Below are positions 2 to 59,778 of a stretch of DNA of 64,000 nt, in pieces. The notes beneath the pieces were generated by a model. It saw only the letters and a list, made by a program, of their open reading frames with translations, did not search any database and was not told the origin of the DNA. The DNA comes from an uncultured Erysipelotrichaceae bacterium (GTDB taxonomy: Bacteria; Bacillota_I; Bacilli_A; RF39; UBA660), in the NCBI GenBank assembly GCA_902793375.1, contig CADBDE010000005.1, positions 1 to 64,000 on the forward strand, read 5' to 3'. Positions within the stretch are counted from its first letter, which is position 1; each line of letters starts with the position of its first letter. The position numbers and the translations under genes are program-made.

Positions 2-1060
2 GGTAAATTAGAAATGTATTCTACCAATACAACATATTATATTCCAACAAGTTGTATAAAAACAGAAAATGCACAAAAATCACCATATGGAGATTTTACT
101 AAAGCATATGTAGGAGTAATATATGATGGAAAAGGATACAAATATTACTGGATAAGCGTAGATGATGCAGGACAAGGAGTATCAAAAATAACACCACTAG
201 ATAAACTAGATACAGAGATAATCGAAAGTGATTTGAAAGACTCTGATATAGAAGGAGTAGTACAAACAACAGGAATAGGAAATAGAAGTGAGATAAAGAT
301 ACTAAATTGTAGTACAAATACTTGGGATGGACAATATCATTTGGATAATACAAGTAATAATGTATCAGAAGATGGAGGAGGATCTAGCTCTGGAGGTTCA
401 GGAAGCGGATCTTCAAGTAACGCAGTAGTATATCCAGAAGGAAAGACAAAAGATACAGTGGTAACTGGAGACATAGTAACAATAGATACAGAAGAGTTCT
501 ATGTAGTAAAACATGATGGAAGTGATTTAATACTACTTTCACACTATAACTTAAATGTAGGAGACAATAAGAAAGCAGGAGCAATAGAAGGAATCCAAGA
601 TAGTGAAGTAAAAGGATATGTAGAGGGTGGAACAAAATATGGAAATATTGTATTCTCAAGTACAAGCTATTGGAATGGAAAAGTAGGAGAAGGATTGGAT
701 TATCCAGGAAGCTATTGTGCAAGTAATACATATACATCTGGAACAAATTGTGCATATGTATATGATGCAAATAGTAATTTAAAGACATATGTAGATAGCT
801 ATAAAACATATTTAGAAGGAAAAGGAGCAACAATAAAGAGCGCAAGATTATTAAGAGTAGAAGAAGCATTTGAACTAGGCTGTGGAAATGGAGCATGGAA
901 CTGTAACAATGCACCAGCCTTCTTAAAAGAGACATCATACTGGCTTGGGTCTGCTCGCAACACTAGCGTCGTTTGGGGCGTGTACTCTTACGGCGACTTC
1001 TACGGCTGCACCTATGACTACGGCGGCGACTTCGGTGTTCGCCCAGTTATAGTAATATAA
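2..1060 (+). CDS. Surface/secreted protein with DGR-like variable C-terminus (5' partial)
   Basis: The reading frame is open to the window edge, so the N-terminus is missing. Counted from the first internal Met (base 14) it has 348 residues: a first region (about 1-110) with two Cys, a Gly/Ser linker (about 119-136), then a globular domain (about 140-348) ending in a WLGSA ... GVRPVIVI motif. That ending is typical of DUF6273-like and C-type-lectin-fold variable proteins. Codons 315-341 are almost all NNC or NNT, unlike the A/T-ending codons elsewhere in the gene. No membrane anchor is seen in the visible part. An intrinsic terminator follows directly. The ligand is unknown; a role in adhesion or ligand binding is inferred from the fold resemblance only. 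Confidence 0.75.
   Translation, partial: GKLEMYSTNTTYYIPTSCIKTENAQKSPYGDFTKAYVGVIYDGKGYKYYWISVDDAGQGVSKITPLDKLDTEIIESDLKDSDIEGVVQTTGIGNRSEIKILNCSTNTWDGQYHLDNTSNNVSEDGGGSSSGGSGSGSSSNAVVYPEGKTKDTVVTGDIVTIDTEEFYVVKHDGSDLILLSHYNLNVGDNKKAGAIEGIQDSEVKGYVEGGTKYGNIVFSSTSYWNGKVGEGLDYPGSYCASNTYTSGTNCAYVYDANSNLKTYVDSYKTYLEGKGATIKSARLLRVEEAFELGCGNGAWNCNNAPAFLKETSYWLGSARNTSVVWGVYSYGDFYGCTYDYGGDFGVRPVIVI
941..1045 (+). other. Candidate diversity-generating retroelement variable region (VR)
   Basis: By hand count 59 of the 100 bases 941-1040 are G or C, against 40 of 100 just upstream and far less in most of the window. Codons 315-341 end in C or T except TGG and GTG. The variable-looking ones (cgc, aac, act, agc, ggc, tac, tct, gac, tgc, acc, tat) are all reachable from AAC or AAT by changing only the adenines. 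They sit between a WLGSA lead and a GVRPV tail, as in known DGR targets. No template repeat, Avd gene or reverse transcriptase is in the window, so the assignment rests on codon pattern and protein fold. Confidence 0.6.
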
Positions 1061-1064
1061 TAAT

Positions 1065-1090
1065 AAAAGTATCATTATGATACTTTTTTT
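1065..1090 (+). terminator. Intrinsic terminator after the variable-protein gene
   Basis: AAAAGTATCA pairs with TGATACTTTT across a short loop and runs into a T tract. It covers an upstream in-frame ATG (1077) of murE, which supports the later murE start. Confidence 0.75.
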
Positions 1091-18923: not shown

Positions 18924-18953
18924 ATAAAAAAAGAATGATTTTGTCATTCTTTT
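18924..18953 (-). terminator. Intrinsic terminator after the ChW surface protein
   Basis: On the minus strand AAAGAATGA pairs with TCATTCTTT, followed by further T. Confidence 0.85.
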
Positions 18954-21900
18954 ATTTTTGATAAAAAGCTTTTAGACCTAATGATATATTAGTTGGTGTT
19001 TCACCTTTAGGTACTAGTTTTATTTCTATTCCCTCTAGTCTATATGCAAAACCTGCTGTTCCTGCTTGTTCACCATTTTTTGCCCATCCTAACCATCCAA
19101 AGTTCTGTGCATGAACTCTATAATAAATATCAAAGTGTTCTGCCATTTCTCCAGTTAGTTTTATTTCTATTGCTTCAAGTCTTAAACTTTTTCCGCTAGT
19201 TCCACTCATTTCATCATTTTTCTTAAATTCTGTTTCCCATCCAATATTTTGGATATGTGTTCTATATTCTATATTTCCAGTATAATCTTGATTTAGAAGT
19301 TTTACTTTTATTCCTTCTAATCTTAAGGATTTTCCTTGAGTTCCAGCCATATTTCCATCATATACATAATTTTGCCATCCTACATTTTGTACATGTGTTG
19401 TATATGACACTTTTGCATCATCTGGAATTGGTGTTATAGATCCTTGATTTTTATCATAGAATATAACAGATTTCCCATATCCAGACATTTTTTCTCCTTT
19501 TGGTACTAGTTTAATTTCTATACCTTCAAGTCGATATGCGTATCCAGCAGTTCCTGAGCTTTCTCCATTTCTAGCCCATCCTAGCCATCCAAAGTTTTGT
19601 GCATGTACTCTATAATATAAATCATAGTGTTCTGCCATTTCTCCAGTTAATCTTAACTCTATTGCTTCTAGTCTATATGAACGTCCACTAGTTCCACTCA
19701 TTTCATTATTTTTCTTGAAACTTGTTTCCCATCCAATGTTTTCTATATGAGTTCTATATTCTATATCTCCAGGATAATCTTGATTATCTAATTTAACTTT
19801 AATTCCTTCAAGTCTTAATGAAAGTCCTTGAGTTCCTGCCATTGCTCCATTACTTACATAATCTTGCCATCCAATATTTTGTATATGTGTTGTATATGAA
19901 ATTCCTGCTTCTGGTATAGGACTTAAAACAACACTAGCATCTACTTCAACAGTAGCAGTTCTTGTTCCGTTTACTTCAGTTGCAGTTATAACATATGTTC
20001 CTTCATAATTACCAACAATACCAGCAAATGAACTACTCTTATTTGCAATTACAGTTATATCAAATGATTCATTTGGAGCAAGTACATGACTATTATCAAA
20101 TCCTATGCTTCCAAATGGTCCACTTCCAGTTGGATTTGTTATAGATAATGTTACTGAAACATTACCATTATTTGTTATTGTTAATGTTCTAGAAACATTT
20201 TCATTAAAGTTTACGTATACTTCTCCAAAATCAACAGTTGATGGATTAGAAGTAATAGATATAGTATCAACAGGTGTTGTATTACCTTCTTTTTCTACTA
20301 TTGCATATGTACTAAAATGATTTGTACTAAATTTAGCTATAAAGTCGTCAAGTACTATTTGATGTTCTTCAACTGTTCCATTATCATTTATATAAATAGC
20401 TTTTAATTCTCTATTATTTAATAAACTTGTATCAATAGGTACTTCTACATCAAATTCTTCTCCATTAAATTCTTCAATTTGCCCAATTGTTGGAGAGAAT
20501 AAATCAATATCAATAACTAAAACATTAGTTAATCCTGCATTACTTATATATTGGTTATAAGTTTGATTATCAGTAATAATATTAGAAGATACTAATGTAT
20601 TAGCAGGATATACAGCATTATCAGATGAAACATTAACACTAGTATTAACATCACTTGCAATAAATGTTGAATTCTTTATTTTACTTGAATCTTTTATGAT
20701 TAATAACATTTTTTCTCTACCTTGATAAGTTATTCTATAAATGTTATTATTTGATCCAGTTGGGTCCATATATTGATCTGAATGTAGTGGATTCTCTTCT
20801 GTTCTTAAGAATTCAATTTTTACACCTGAATTTTCTCCAAGATAATTATCTACTCTTTGCTGAGCTGCTGCAACATATGCTTCAGTTGTTTCAGCTGTAT
20901 CATCTGGAATATAAAGAATATGATCCATTGCTATCTCAAAAAATTGATTTGCTATTCCATAAGCAATTCCATCATAATATAATACTAGTTTTCCGCCAGT
21001 TACTTCATATAATCCATCACCTAAACCACCATCTATTGAAAAGAAATAACTAACATGCTTATTATTTATTAAACTACCTATTTCATCATTTATTATTTTA
21101 GAATTATAACTTCCGCTTCCAATTGCATCTATACTTAAATCATTATAGAAACTATTAATAAACTCTAAATCATCTACTTTTATTATAAATGTATCAAATG
21201 CAATATTATCAGATGATTCTACAGTATTTTCTTTATTATTTTTCTTAACGCTACTTGCTTTAATAACTCTATCATCATTATCTATATCTTCAATAATACT
21301 ATCTATTACTTGTTTATGAGCTTGATTTCCTTCTGCATACACTATATTCATAGTATGAGATTCTAAATTATTGAATATTAAATTTGCTGTATTATTATTA
21401 AAGTTTTGTAAATAAGACCAAGATTTTGTTTTAGATGATAATGTTCCTTGAGATGCTCTATATAAGAATTCTTCATTATCTAGATAAATTGAATTGATTT
21501 CTAGTGTATCTCCAGAGAATGCTTCATCAAATTCTGTACTTCTTCCTTGTTTAATATTAATTCTTACATTTTGTATTTCTAAATGTCCTGCTGAATATAT
21601 AATTACAGAACAAGTTGAATTATTCGTACTACATTGAAGAGGACGTACTGTGCTTTTATAAGAACCATCTTTAGTAAATAATTCATTTGAATAAGAAAGT
21701 CTATTCCAATAATCTGTTGATTCACCAGGATAAATATCTAGTTCTGCTTTTGCAAGTGCTAAGAATGCATCAGTTGGATCAGATCTAACTATAGTAAATG
21801 GAAATGTATGTGTTTCATTTTTATTAATAGCATAATTCATCATATTAAGTCTACATTGTCCTGTAGTGTTACTTCCATCATCTAAATTACAATTGTAACT

Positions 21901-23418
21901 TAAAGAATTTTGTGTTTGGTCATTATAAATGTAGTGATAAAAATTACCATAATTAAGAGTTACACCATTACCCATAATTATTTCTAAGCTATCATTTTCT
22001 ATATTAAATTCATCTATAAATTCATCTGATACAGTATTATCTAATATTATATGTAAATTATGTATTTCAATTGTTCTATTATTTTCATCATATAAAGATA
22101 TATCACAGTATGAATAATCAGAATTGCATCCTAATACACGAGCATTGTAAGAATAATTATTTAATCCATTTTGAATTGAGTCCATATCAAGAGAATCTGA
22201 ATTAATTGTTATTTCTTCTCCAAAAGTATTACTATATTCCTCACTTACTGTATTAGAGTATCCACTAAATACAACAGGTATTCTATGAAATTGTGTTTGA
22301 TAAAGTCCTGTATTATAATTTCTTCTTTCATATTTTACTATTACATAATCAGCAGAATTATATCCTTCAAAAATAGTTGTAAAACTATAATGTTCATTTT
22401 CATTAACACTATATGATCTTGAAGTTGCGTTAGAATAATTCATCACATACGAATATGGATTAGTAGGAACAGCTGCAGCAATAGTAAATGATGTTCTATA
22501 TCCAGGAATATCATATAAATCTAAGTCTATATTTTCATCTTTAATTAATGTAATTAAATGTCTTTCACTTTCTTGGAAATTTCCATTTACCCATGATCCC
22601 ATTTTAATCATTACTTTATTATTAGAAATATTACCATCTATTTGAAAGTTAAGTGTGTTAAATGATGGTATAGCAGATTGTAATATATCTCTTGTAATAT
22701 CTGTATCTGATTTTATTGTAAATGTACCTGAAGAAAATTGTTTAAAATCATCACTATAATCTGCTTCTGTATAACTAAATACTACATTATTTACTACTTT
22801 TCTAGTTACTTTACTTGGTAAATTACCAGTATAACCATTATATTCAATTTTAGTAATGCAAACAGGTTGAATATATTGATTATACCTATAATTTATACTA
22901 TTTTCTCCATTAGAATCAAAATTCATTAAATAATTAGATATTACTGTATTTCTTTCATTTTCATTAGCAATCAAATCTTCTGGATAATCTATTGTTAATG
23001 TATCATTTTGAACCATTGTAAAATCTTGACTAATATTTGAATTAATTGTAAGTACAATGTTTTCATAAGTTTTTAATGTTTCACTATTATATTGACCATT
23101 TTCAGAAAAACCTCTTCTTAATTCAACATCACATGTTAAATTATCAAAATTACAATTATTTGGTTCTACTTGATAAACTGTATAAGTTGTGCTTGTACTA
23201 AAACTCTTTTGATAGTTATAGTATAAAATATTATACAATTCATTACGTAGTGAAGTACTATCAGTTATTGCTACATCAGAATTAATAGTAAATGTACCTG
23301 ATTCAAACAAAGAATCATATAAAGCTACATAATCAGTAGCCCAAACATTTGACTTACCTATTATCACGTAACCAAATAAAGCAAATAATAATACAACTAA
23401 ATATTTTAATTTTTTCAT
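18952..23418 (-). CDS. Large secreted ChW-repeat surface protein
   Basis: 1488 residues. Signal peptide at 1-27 (MKKLKYLVVLLF ..., ending NVWA). Residues about 28-740 contain degenerate repeats that begin with a F-x-SGTFTI-x-SD-like phrase; about 750-1040 is an uncharacterised region; about 1050-1160 is an Ig-like ASPM/Hydin-type domain (DFGEVYVNF ... LTITNNGNV). Residues about 1168-1306 and 1329-1470 each hold three ChW repeats with the H-x-QN-x-GW ... GTxGxxxRLEGI pattern. No LPXTG motif or C-terminal anchor helix is present, so cell attachment may rely on the ChW repeats. AGGAGGATTTT precedes the ATG. Role in adhesion or polymer binding is inferred. Confidence 0.85.
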   Translation of the reverse strand: MKKLKYLVVLLFALFGYVIIGKSNVWATDYVALYDSLFESGTFTINSDVAITDSTSLRNELYNILYYNYQKSFSTSTTYTVYQVEPNNCNFDNLTCDVELRRGFSENGQYNSETLKTYENIVLTINSNISQDFTMVQNDTLTIDYPEDLIANENERNTVISNYLMNFDSNGENSINYRYNQYIQPVCITKIEYNGYTGNLPSKVTRKVVNNVVFSYTEADYSDDFKQFSSGTFTIKSDTDITRDILQSAIPSFNTLNFQIDGNISNNKVMIKMGSWVNGNFQESERHLITLIKDENIDLDLYDIPGYRTSFTIAAAVPTNPYSYVMNYSNATSRSYSVNENEHYSFTTIFEGYNSADYVIVKYERRNYNTGLYQTQFHRIPVVFSGYSNTVSEEYSNTFGEEITINSDSLDMDSIQNGLNNYSYNARVLGCNSDYSYCDISLYDENNRTIEIHNLHIILDNTVSDEFIDEFNIENDSLEIIMGNGVTLNYGNFYHYIYNDQTQNSLSYNCNLDDGSNTTGQCRLNMMNYAINKNETHTFPFTIVRSDPTDAFLALAKAELDIYPGESTDYWNRLSYSNELFTKDGSYKSTVRPLQCSTNNSTCSVIIYSAGHLEIQNVRINIKQGRSTEFDEAFSGDTLEINSIYLDNEEFLYRASQGTLSSKTKSWSYLQNFNNNTANLIFNNLESHTMNIVYAEGNQAHKQVIDSIIEDIDNDDRVIKASSVKKNNKENTVESSDNIAFDTFIIKVDDLEFINSFYNDLSIDAIGSGSYNSKIINDEIGSLINNKHVSYFFSIDGGLGDGLYEVTGGKLVLYYDGIAYGIANQFFEIAMDHILYIPDDTAETTEAYVAAAQQRVDNYLGENSGVKIEFLRTEENPLHSDQYMDPTGSNNNIYRITYQGREKMLLIIKDSSKIKNSTFIASDVNTSVNVSSDNAVYPANTLVSSNIITDNQTYNQYISNAGLTNVLVIDIDLFSPTIGQIEEFNGEEFDVEVPIDTSLLNNRELKAIYINDNGTVEEHQIVLDDFIAKFSTNHFSTYAIVEKEGNTTPVDTISITSNPSTVDFGEVYVNFNENVSRTLTITNNGNVSVTLSITNPTGSGPFGSIGFDNSHVLAPNESFDITVIANKSSSFAGIVGNYEGTYVITATEVNGTRTATVEVDASVVLSPIPEAGISYTTHIQNIGWQDYVSNGAMAGTQGLSLRLEGIKVKLDNQDYPGDIEYRTHIENIGWETSFKKNNEMSGTSGRSYRLEAIELRLTGEMAEHYDLYYRVHAQNFGWLGWARNGESSGTAGYAYRLEGIEIKLVPKGEKMSGYGKSVIFYDKNQGSITPIPDDAKVSYTTHVQNVGWQNYVYDGNMAGTQGKSLRLEGIKVKLLNQDYTGNIEYRTHIQNIGWETEFKKNDEMSGTSGKSLRLEAIEIKLTGEMAEHFDIYYRVHAQNFGWLGWAKNGEQAGTAGFAYRLEGIEIKLVPKGETPTNISLGLKAFYQK
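19010..19920 (-). repeat. Duplicated triple-ChW block
   Basis: The coding sequence at about 19010-19430 and 19500-19915 encodes the same order of three ChW repeats with near-identical wording (for example MAGTQG, MSGTSG and NFGWLGWA phrases in both). The offset is about 490 bases, consistent with one internal duplication of a three-repeat unit. Confidence 0.8.
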
Positions 23419-54004: not shown

Positions 54005-54021
54005 GTTCGAATAGTTCGAAC
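54005..54021. repeat. Perfect inverted repeat beside tRNA-Leu
   Basis: GTTCGAA-TAG-TTCGAAC, 12 bases from the tRNA-Leu 3' end. Confidence 0.6.
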
Positions 54022-54032
54022 AGATTCGTCAC

Positions 54033-54116
54033 TGGTGCGGGTGACAGGAGTTGAACCTGCAAGCCAAAGGCGCTAGATCCTAAGTCTAGTGCGTCTGCCA
54101 ATTCCGCCACACCCGC
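54033..54116 (-). tRNA. tRNA-Leu (anticodon UAG)
   Basis: 84 bases on the minus strand with encoded CCA. Acceptor stem GCGGGTG/CACCCGC, long variable arm, anticodon stem CTAGA/TCTAG with loop CTTAGGA, T arm GGTTCAACTCC. Three bases after the next tRNA, so both share a transcript. Confidence 0.95.
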
Positions 54117-54119
54117 GAG

Positions 54120-54196
54120 TGGTGGACCCTATAGGACTCGAACCTATGACCGCCCGGTTATGAGCCGGATGCTCTAACCAACTGAGCTAAGGGTCC
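54120..54196 (-). tRNA. tRNA with CAU anticodon (probably Ile2, else elongator Met)
   Basis: 77 bases on the minus strand with encoded CCA. Acceptor stem GGACCCT/AGGGTCC, D arm GCTCAGTTGGTTAGAGC, anticodon loop CTCATAA, T arm GGTTCGAGTCC. The GGACC acceptor start is like the Bacillus tRNA-Ile2, whose C34 is modified to lysidine; the DNA alone does not settle Ile2 against Met. Confidence 0.92.
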
Positions 54197-55999: not shown

Positions 56000-56032
56000 A
56001 AAAAGAATATAAAGGTTTTTCTTTATATTCTT
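56000..56032 (-). terminator. Intrinsic terminator after the B-repeat surface protein
   Basis: On the minus strand AAGAATATAAAG pairs with CTTTATATTCTT around a short loop, followed by seven T. Confidence 0.85.
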
Positions 56033-59000
56033 AATTAATTAATATTGCTGTTTGATAAGTAACATTATCTATTACTTCAGTTCCATTTTGAATAGTTGTA
56101 TTTGCTTCTAAGAAAGATGAATTAGGAACATTACTAAATGCTGCTTCTTTTCCTTTTATTATTCCATCATAGAAATAAATATTGTTTCCATAAACTCCAT
56201 TTTTATTTCCTTGAATAATTGGATTTGTTGTACTTATTCCATTGCCACTTTCTCCAATATAAACTGTTCCTGATTCATTTCTAATAGCATTTGGAGTTTC
56301 ATAATTAGTATTAACTGAATTTCCAGTAGATATAATAGTTCCACCATTAATATATATTGTACCATTCTTTAAATTATGTACTGTTGCTCTTTCATCAGCT
56401 GAAGAAGTTAAATATGAATTGTTATTAATTGTAACTACTCCACCGTTATTATAAATAACTTGTCTTGAACCAGATGCTATAAAATTACCACTATTTATAG
56501 TAAGAACGCCAGTACTTGATATATCAATCATACCTGATCCTGCTGAAGTTTTAATAGTTCCTCCAATTATCGTAAAATTACCATTACTTTTAAATACGTT
56601 TGAAGTCCCTGTATAGTTATATGTATGTCCTTGCATATTTAATTCAACAATATAATCACTATTTATTGATAGAGTATTACTTTCCTCAAAGTCTTTCCAA
56701 ATTAATATTTCGTATTTAGTATTTTTAGTTTTTACTGCTGCAAAGGCACTTTTTAATGTAGTATAATATGATCCATTTACTTCTGCTACTACATCATTGC
56801 TTCTCCATTTTGCATATAAAGGAGTATCTTTTGAAACAATATAATCAGATGTTACTTTAGTTGTAAATGAACTATCTAAATACCATCCAACTAAAGTATT
56901 ATTATTTTTATTTGCTATAGGTAATTCTCCAATAGCAGTATTTTCTTTGACTGGAATACTATCAACTGGATCTCCACCATTTGTAACAAAACTAACTATA
57001 TAATAAGTAATATCATTATTTACATTAATTGTTACAGTTTTTGTAGAATTTGATTTTGCTCCTTTAATAGTAATTGTTGTTATTCCTTCATTAACTCCAG
57101 TAATTAAACCATTACTATCTACTAAAGCAACTTCTTCATTATTTGAAGTATAAATATATTCCTCATTATTTTCTAATGATTTTGTAATATTTATTTGAAC
57201 TGTATTTCCAATTTTAACACTCAAAAAATTATTTTCAAGTGTTGCACCATCTATTGAACCTGTCCATTTAGCAAATAATTCAGTATTATTATTTACTACA
57301 TAATTCTCATTAATTGCATTATTATCAGATAAAGAAGTAAACCATCCATCAAATAAATAACCATTTCTAACAGGTGTAGGAAGACTTCCAATAGAGTTTC
57401 CATCCTTAATTATTAATCCATGAACATTTATTTCTCCACCATTGGTATTAAATCTTACAGCAATACTATCATCCATTTTTGCAAGCGGTATTTCTATAAC
57501 AGGTCTAAATCCACTTTTCTCAGTATTTGCTTTTGATGGAAGAATATCATTAGTATCTCCACGGTAACGTTTTGGAGTTCCATTTGCATTAAGCCAACGA
57601 ACTGATCTTCCTTTTGTTTTATCGTCAGTATAATAAATTGTATTTTCAAGTATATAATTGCAATCAGTTAAATCACTTGGATTTGAACAAGCAGCTAACA
57701 AATCATCTTCATATGGTAGTCTTGATACTATACTATCTTCAATTAGAGGAATATTTGGCCATTCTTGTGATCTTGGTAAGTTATTGCTTGCTTCACTATA
57801 TAAATCAATAAAACTATTATCAACTACTCTATTTCCTTCATCATCATGAGAAAAACTTGAATTGTATATTAATACAGCTTTATTATTAAGAGTTCTTAAA
57901 TAATAAAATCTTTCTATGTCATCATCATATACTCCATCACCATTTACATCACAGTTAAATGCATTTCCTGGTGACAATTCATCTAAAGCAACATTTCCAT
58001 ATGTAATTGTTGTAGTATGTTTATTACCATCTAAAGTATATCCAGATAAAACACATCCTTCATTTTTTTCTTTATTACATTCTTGAGTATGAAGAACTAC
58101 TGCTTTTTTACAAATATAGGGATTTTCACTCCATTTAGCATATAATACTTTTGTGCCACTTTTTACTATATTTGTTACACTACTATTATCCTCAAATACA
58201 ACTTCTCCATCAATTGTTTCAGCCCATCCATCAAATGAATATCCCATTTTCTTATACCCATTAAGAGTTAGTGTACAAGATTCATCATATGTACATTCAA
58301 CACTATCAGTTGATCCACTAGTACTTTCATTTCCATCAAAATTAATTGTATATTTATTAGCAGTCCATTTAGCATACAAATTCATATTATCTGTTACTTT
58401 AGTTGTCGAACTAACTTTATTTACTAATCCTTCTTCAGTATACCATCCATCAAAAGAATATCCATCCTTAGTTGGATTAGGAAGACTTCCAAGTTGTTCA
58501 TCATAATCTTTATAGCTATTATCAAATTCTCCTCCACCATTTGAATGATATGTAATTATATATTTATCAATAATCCAATGTGCTTTATAACTTCTATTTT
58601 CAAAAGAACCTTTTTCTATAGTTACGTTATTAGATTTAGTATCAATACCAGTTCCTGTCCATCCATCAAATGTAGATCCATCTTTAGTAGGATTATTTAA
58701 TGTAAATGTATCAGTCTCAATTGTATACTTTAAAGGATTACTACTAGATACACTTCCACCATCTAAATCATACACAATATCATATTCAATTAATTCATAT
58801 TTTGGAGTTAACTCTTTATCAGTAATAATATCTGAATCAAAATTAAATTCATTATCTCCAATAAACCATCCAATAAAGTTATATCCATCCTTTAAAGGAT
58901 CTTCAGGTTTTTCCATCTTTTCTCCATATTTTATTACTTCTATTATTTCTTGACCATCTTCATCAGTATATGTAACAACTACTTTATCAAATAAATCAAG

Positions 59001-59684
59001 TTCATTAGTAATGGTAACAACAATACTTGGAGAAATTGCAAATATAGAAACAGGAATCAAAACTAATACTAATAATAAGTATTTAGTTTTTTTATTTTTA
59101 ATAAATAGACTTATAAGAACTATAAATGATATTATAGCACTTGCAATATAAAGATTTATATTATCATGAGTTTTTGGGTTTACAATTATATCTTCAGTAA
59201 CAACGTTTCCTTCTTCATCAATAAACTCAAAAGACAAATTAAATCTATTCTCTTGTTCTCTATAATTGATATCTAATAATTCGTTTTTATAAGTAGCTGT
59301 TAATACTATATCTAAAGTACTATCTTTTTGTATTGTTTGATTATCATAATCATCATATGTATATGTAATGTAATTATTAGAATTATCATCACTTATTAAT
59401 TTTACTTTGTAATCTTTATCAGATGTATTTTTTATGGTTAGTTTAAACTTAACAAATTCATCTAGATTATGAAAAGTAATATTTGTATTAAGCTCATTAT
59501 TATCAAAATTATCTATTGTAGCATCAACATTGGCTGACTTTTCTACAATTACTGCATCAATAAGTTTAAATCTAGGTTCACTAGCCAAAGCCTTATTAAT
59601 TCCAAAAATTGAGAATAAAAAAATAAATATAAAAATAAAAAATATTAACTTAAAAGCGTTAATCTTCGAAATCATATTCTTCAT
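56031..59684 (-). CDS. Large surface protein with InlB-type B-repeats, Big_2 and beta-helix regions
   Basis: 1217 residues from ATG 59684 (GGAGATACAGTT upstream); the longer frame from 59750 adds residues in front of the signal. Signal helix at about 10-33, a beta domain to about 170, two membrane helices (about 175-225), then several Listeria-Bacteroides B-repeats (about 235-515, phrases like GYxFDGWxT ... YAKW), a DUF6273-like domain (about 515-745, ending SGFRPVIEI), another B-repeat, a Big_2 Ig-like domain (about 816-893), a B-repeat and a C-terminal right-handed beta-helix-like region (about 970-1217). No LPXTG. The internal helices suggest membrane anchoring with the repeats outside. 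Adhesion is inferred. Confidence 0.85.
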   Translation of the reverse strand: MKNMISKINAFKLIFFIFIFIFLFSIFGINKALASEPRFKLIDAVIVEKSANVDATIDNFDNNELNTNITFHNLDEFVKFKLTIKNTSDKDYKVKLISDDNSNNYITYTYDDYDNQTIQKDSTLDIVLTATYKNELLDINYREQENRFNLSFEFIDEEGNVVTEDIIVNPKTHDNINLYIASAIISFIVLISLFIKNKKTKYLLLVLVLIPVSIFAISPSIVVTITNELDLFDKVVVTYTDEDGQEIIEVIKYGEKMEKPEDPLKDGYNFIGWFIGDNEFNFDSDIITDKELTPKYELIEYDIVYDLDGGSVSSSNPLKYTIETDTFTLNNPTKDGSTFDGWTGTGIDTKSNNVTIEKGSFENRSYKAHWIIDKYIITYHSNGGGEFDNSYKDYDEQLGSLPNPTKDGYSFDGWYTEEGLVNKVSSTTKVTDNMNLYAKWTANKYTINFDGNESTSGSTDSVECTYDESCTLTLNGYKKMGYSFDGWAETIDGEVVFEDNSSVTNIVKSGTKVLYAKWSENPYICKKAVVLHTQECNKEKNEGCVLSGYTLDGNKHTTTITYGNVALDELSPGNAFNCDVNGDGVYDDDIERFYYLRTLNNKAVLIYNSSFSHDDEGNRVVDNSFIDLYSEASNNLPRSQEWPNIPLIEDSIVSRLPYEDDLLAACSNPSDLTDCNYILENTIYYTDDKTKGRSVRWLNANGTPKRYRGDTNDILPSKANTEKSGFRPVIEIPLAKMDDSIAVRFNTNGGEINVHGLIIKDGNSIGSLPTPVRNGYLFDGWFTSLSDNNAINENYVVNNNTELFAKWTGSIDGATLENNFLSVKIGNTVQINITKSLENNEEYIYTSNNEEVALVDSNGLITGVNEGITTITIKGAKSNSTKTVTINVNNDITYYIVSFVTNGGDPVDSIPVKENTAIGELPIANKNNNTLVGWYLDSSFTTKVTSDYIVSKDTPLYAKWRSNDVVAEVNGSYYTTLKSAFAAVKTKNTKYEILIWKDFEESNTLSINSDYIVELNMQGHTYNYTGTSNVFKSNGNFTIIGGTIKTSAGSGMIDISSTGVLTINSGNFIASGSRQVIYNNGGVVTINNNSYLTSSADERATVHNLKNGTIYINGGTIISTGNSVNTNYETPNAIRNESGTVYIGESGNGISTTNPIIQGNKNGVYGNNIYFYDGIIKGKEAAFSNVPNSSFLEANTTIQNGTEVIDNVTYQTAILIN

Positions 59685-59745
59685 AACTGTATCTCCATAT
59701 TTTAAATATATATTTATATCATCATTTACTATTATAACACAATTC

Positions 59746-59778
59746 GACAAAAAAATATTAATTTTTTAAAAAATTAAT
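59746..59778 (-). terminator. Intrinsic terminator after the ThyX-like gene
   Basis: A perfect palindrome (TATTAATTTTTT and its complement) followed on the minus strand by seven T. Confidence 0.65.

Follow-up and report, generated by a model that had tools for sequence, protein, structure and literature searches.

A G+C-Rich Gene End at the Start of a Contig

The first gene of the window, the whole stretch of 64,000 nucleotides analysed here from an uncultured Erysipelotrichaceae bacterium, ends in a short stretch of unusual composition. This raises the question of whether the stretch is the variable region (VR) of a diversity-generating retroelement (DGR) and, if so, where the template repeat (TR) and reverse transcriptase (RT) that would act on it are to be found. 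The gene (2–1060, forward strand) is prepilin-like; 352 codons are present, and the reading frame is open at its 5' end and ends in TAA. Base 1 of the window is also base 1 of contig C5; consequently, the DNA upstream of the window cannot be read, and because the contig start falls inside the gene, this copy lacks the prepilin N-terminus. A Gly/Ser-rich linker at 368–421 (forward strand), which reads EDGGGSSSGGSGSGSSSN in the sequence, joins the conserved prepilin part to a C-terminal domain (422–1057, forward strand) that ends in the VR (947–1051, forward strand). The VR is thus the terminal part of the open reading frame, at the 3' end of a surface-like gene, as in DGR targets. The C-terminal domain has no Pfam match, and neither a Pfam search of the window ORF nor a PDB profile search returned anything significant. 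A structure model of this domain, built from two sequences, reached a pLDDT of 42, which is too weak to show whether it has the C-type lectin fold expected of a DGR target. Just 3' of the stop codon, the sequence reads as a hairpin followed by a T run (1065–1089, forward strand); this is a predicted terminator that possibly doubles as a target-site hairpin, and different hairpins occur at a comparable place at the other loci of the same VR type (VR1). The next gene encodes Mur ligase domains consistent with MurE, in agreement with the preliminary description of this DNA, which had placed murE directly after the target.

The preliminary description had also put the G+C content of the gene end at 59% by hand count. 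The measured value is 0.600 over 941–1045, versus 0.332 over 2–940 and 0.248 for the whole window. This is the highest value among 12,779 intervals of 105 nt taken in steps of 5 nt, and no other interval reaches 0.600; among the intervals listed, the only others of at least 0.50 G+C start at 54006–54111 and lie over tRNA genes at 54033–54196. Of the 34 codons that start with codon 314, 30 are NNY and 21 are NNC, versus 39% NNY and 8% NNC in the preceding 313 codons. The run of NNC/NNT codons noticed earlier near codons 315–341 is therefore real, and its borders, WLGSA and GVRPVIVI, are as claimed. Paralogs on C1 and C2 that carry the same domain without a VR have 37% G+C and ordinary codons. 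The homology of the VR to the templates begins at about 941–947 and stops at about 1051, with the adenine-derived codons occupying 956–1030.

Variable Regions and Template Repeats Across the Genome

When used as a query, the VR matches nine places in its own genome (C5, C25, C8 twice, C18, C16, C7, C21, and C19), in addition to a shorter, template-like match on C21. Together with four copies of a second type, VR2 (C23 twice, C12, and C8:17929), the genome holds 13 VRs of two template types. In the codon alignment of the VR1 copies, the constant codons are GGG TCT GCT, GTT TGG, GTG, TCT, GGC, TTC, and GTT CGC CCA GTT ATA, and the copies diverge chiefly where a template would have AAC or AAT. 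When the inferred template served as query, C23 and C12 also proved to carry A-rich copies.

In total, the assembly contains four non-coding TR-like loci, three of which are chimeric. The complete second template, TR2, lies at the start of contig C13 (C13:130–231). At C21:24547–24645 (reverse strand) the 5' half of TR1 is joined to the 3' half of TR2, while C23:15017–15115 (reverse strand) has the reciprocal arrangement; judged by their sequences, these two templates look like reciprocal recombinants. The third chimeric locus, C12:35163–35243 (reverse strand), joins a 5' part of TR2 to a VR1-like end. None of the three chimeric loci adjoins an RT. The preliminary description had stated that no RT or template lies locally, which is true within the window (upstream of the contig start being unreadable), and had placed the template, Avd, and RT either upstream or elsewhere, suggesting a genome search for an A-rich template beside a DGR-type RT. 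The first part of this expectation stood, as template-like copies are present on other contigs; no DGR RT lies beside any of them, and neither a DGR-type RT nor Avd was found in the assembly.

Contigs C8 and C19 share at their starts (L013 and L015, 1–330) a template leader of 99 identical bases, which in each runs straight into a VR1-like end followed by its own downstream DNA. The copy at the C19 start has no prepilin gene in front of it, yet its adenine sites are diversified. Searches outside this genome returned little. The TR1 of the window gave a single weak match among 38 relatives, VR patterns and a VR-family profile matched no viral contigs, and VR and TR DNA matched no phages or plasmids. 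A contig search with the domain found one relative (L099), in which the domain lacks a G+C-rich VR.

Adenine Specificity of the Variation

The pattern of substitution was examined by comparing eight VR1 copies with a template assembled from the 5' part of the C21 locus and the 3' part of the C23 locus, both of which are chimeric. Changes occur in 150 of 289 cells at template adenines versus 37 of 479 at other bases, and 36 of 37 adenine columns are variable versus 9 of 62 others. For the window VR alone, changes affect 23 of 37 sites at template adenines and 5 of 62 elsewhere (p 1.2e-8). The p values are not exact, as the template is a composite of two chimeric copies and the VRs share ancestry, but the contrast is very large. 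One codon, AGC in the C21 template and ACT in most VRs, accounts for much of the non-adenine change. The VR2 copies follow the same pattern relative to TR2, more weakly (67/128 adenine versus 53/280 other sites changed).

Pairwise comparison of the VR1 copies separates the gene into three classes of site. Mean identity is 84% in the upstream coding DNA and 96% at non-adenine VR sites, versus 42% at adenine sites; likeness at the former VR sites combined with scatter at the latter is what copying from a template predicts. The C25/C21 pair has 94.6% identity upstream, 97.8% at non-adenine VR sites, and 40.6% at adenine sites. As the adenine sites differ strongly in copies that match at 95% of their upstream bases, the diversification was recent. 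Based on the homologous VRs, the non-coding template-like copies, and this very strong adenine bias, together with intact DGR cassettes in congeneric genomes, one of them acting on the same prepilin family, the earlier suggestion of a DGR target is upheld: 947–1051 is a DGR variable region, one of a set of prepilin targets dispersed over contigs (probability about 0.93).

Proposed Mechanism and the Missing Core

In the mechanism proposed for these genes, a TR RNA rich in AAC and AAT would be reverse transcribed by a DGR RT with Avd, and adenines would be miscopied in the process. The resulting cDNA would then replace the 3' ends of prepilin genes at many places in the chromosome, such that many pilus-like surface proteins would come to differ at about 20 residues while the scaffold remained fixed. 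The core of the system (RT, Avd, and probably a MutS domain I protein) would most likely be located next to a prepilin gene, in a gap of the assembly.

The assembly, which is 96.6% complete, was searched for this core. A profile built from the DGR-type RTs of relatives (11 sequences), which matches RTs in four congeners that themselves contributed to it, found nothing at E <= 10, and Avd (PF22296) likewise gave no match at E <= 10. The MutS_I profile has a single match in the assembly, in an 863-aa frame that is taken to be an ordinary MutS; no MutS_I partner was found. A candidate MutS_I remnant following the TR on C23 was dropped as too weak. The gene qualifies as a DGR target, and the RT and Avd of a complete DGR are not found in this 96.6%-complete, repeat-broken assembly. 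Many contigs end inside prepilin genes. An overlap of exactly 99 bases joins three pairs of contig ends, and 99 bases at the start of C13 also occur in the interior of C23. Because the assembly breaks at prepilin genes, it is plausible that the core is unassembled between prepilin repeats, and we regard an RT/Avd core residing in an assembly gap as the probable situation.

Recent loss of the core is the chief rival account of how the genome stands today, and we hold it to be appreciably possible. The VRs would still have been made by a DGR, with the RT and Avd since lost, for example through TR/VR recombination, and only ordinary mutation and recombination would operate now. This possibility draws on the same failure to find RT, Avd, or a MutS_I partner in the assembly, on TR-like loci that are chimeric or continue into unrelated DNA, on the fusions of a TR leader with a VR end that C8 and C19 carry at their starts, and on the several target genes that are broken (C21, C7, and C8:16797). 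There is also a precedent in Treponema denticola, as some strains without the core retain target genes in the absence of RT and TR (PMC4891356). Against loss stand the strong adenine-site differences between copies with 95% identical upstream DNA, a sign of recent diversification, and the breaking of the assembly at exactly these repeats.

An origin without any DGR, through ordinary positive selection or gene conversion within a repetitive pilin family and in a G+C-rich domain acquired horizontally, is very unlikely. The family is indeed large and repetitive, and the chimeric junctions show that recombination occurs. However, such processes fit poorly with change that is limited to template-adenine columns next to non-adenine sites that are 96% identical, with non-coding template-like copies that retain A at the variable sites, with same-domain paralogs that lack the bias, and with congeners that possess intact DGRs.

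The sole RVT_1 match in the assembly (C2:84774–85319; L001) is an RT resembling those of retron type VI (RT_VI, E 6e-48) with an HTH_36 gene nearby, and is, as far as its sequence indicates, a retron-type RT with its partner gene. That this enzyme performs the mutagenesis in trans is suggested by its being the only RT found, and is extremely improbable given this retron match and neighboring HTH gene, its motif IPQGYPTSP versus (L/I)PIGNxTSQ in DGR-type RTs, and the lack of any VR or TR match near it on C2. An RT similar to it by motif is present in G014 (L044).

Intact Cassettes in Congeners and Comparison with Known Systems

Two congeneric genomes, G008 (L049) and G002 (L050), contain cassettes in the order target, TR, MutS-like protein, Avd, and RT, with the domains confirmed for G008. 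In the repeat cores of both, the TR and VR differ mostly at adenines. The G008 target is a member of the prepilin family to which the first gene of the window belongs. In contrast to the system described here, both cassettes are intact and local, with RT, Avd, and a MutS_I protein, and their VR sequence is of another type. Because one genus includes both species with intact cassettes and the present, apparently coreless one, it lends itself to comparing how the system spreads and is lost. A TR–VR alignment for G015 (L053) found no TR within the stretch chosen. A small MutS domain I-like protein is encoded next to Avd in L049 (6666–7088; PF01624), and similar genes occur in L050 and L054–L059; in L059 this gene lies apart from Avd and RT.

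Among known systems, the DGR of T. denticola (TvpA and remote targets) has 2–7 targets, mostly lipoproteins, served by a single TR and RT together with an accessory HRDC protein (PMC4891356). Like the present system, it has several surface-protein targets distant from the core, in all of which the 3' end of the gene is diversified at positions of template adenines. The differences are the 13 VRs, two template types, prepilin-like targets, and several TR loci found here, with no RT found, and the MutS_I and Avd accessory genes in congeners of this genome versus HRDC in T. denticola. The Bordetella phage BPP-1 DGR (Mtd) shares the adenine-specific copying from template into a VR that forms the 3' end of its target gene (PMC12875486). 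Its one phage tail target, however, is local, and TR, Avd, and RT lie beside it. PilB of Streptococcus sanguinis is, according to its abstract, a similarly modular type IV pilin with a prepilin part and an extra adhesion module; unlike for the genes described here, the abstract mentions no DGR diversification (PMC8179133).

The literature already contains genomes with many VRs, and mentions pilin-like structures in relation to DGR target domains (PMC6642488). A literature search for a single paper containing both "diversity-generating retroelement" and "prepilin" found none, although its coverage was incomplete and this is weak evidence of novelty. Roux et al. note of their own survey that remote targets are missed when the VR is sought beside the RT (PMC8144416). 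Surveys of that design overlook remote targets like those described here.

The Prepilin Family and Its Possible Role

Pilins are classic variable antigens and adhesins, for which the well-known route of variation is recombination from silent copies. Complete paralogs of the window gene in this genome carry the prepilin N_methyl leader (PF07963 / TIGR02532), the N-terminal cleavage and methylation motif. Complete members of the family have this leader, then about 200 conserved residues, often followed by a Gly/Ser linker, and lastly a C-terminal domain that is of one of several kinds; linkers resembling that at 368–421 are present in several paralogs. A search with the prepilin N-terminal part gave 48 matches here and 4–21 in each of 11 congeneric genomes, some matches being fragments of one gene. 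A PilC/GspF-type protein, a component of pilus-assembly machinery, is encoded on C16.

Given the prepilin character of the targets, the VRs are probably exposed on pili or similar fibres. In this one small genome, a system of targeted hypermutation appears to alter the exposed ends of a large number of pilus-like proteins. A more elaborate picture, which we put forward tentatively and consider rather doubtful, is that of a pilin display system with a large modular prepilin family, many dispersed sites, and more than one template, in which RT-less template loci recombine with each other and with VRs while one RT is supplied in trans from an unassembled chromosomal piece or another replicon. If this were true, template-by-template recombination would create new template and target types.

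Two further proteins of the window, both on the reverse strand, deserve mention. The first (56031–59750) is a 1239-aa protein with Listeria-Bacteroides repeats and a domain like the VR2-type C-terminal domain, without a G+C-rich VR. The second (18952–23418) is a putative surface protein of 1488 aa with an internal duplication, in which 18999–19419 and 19491–19911 are 82–84% identical.
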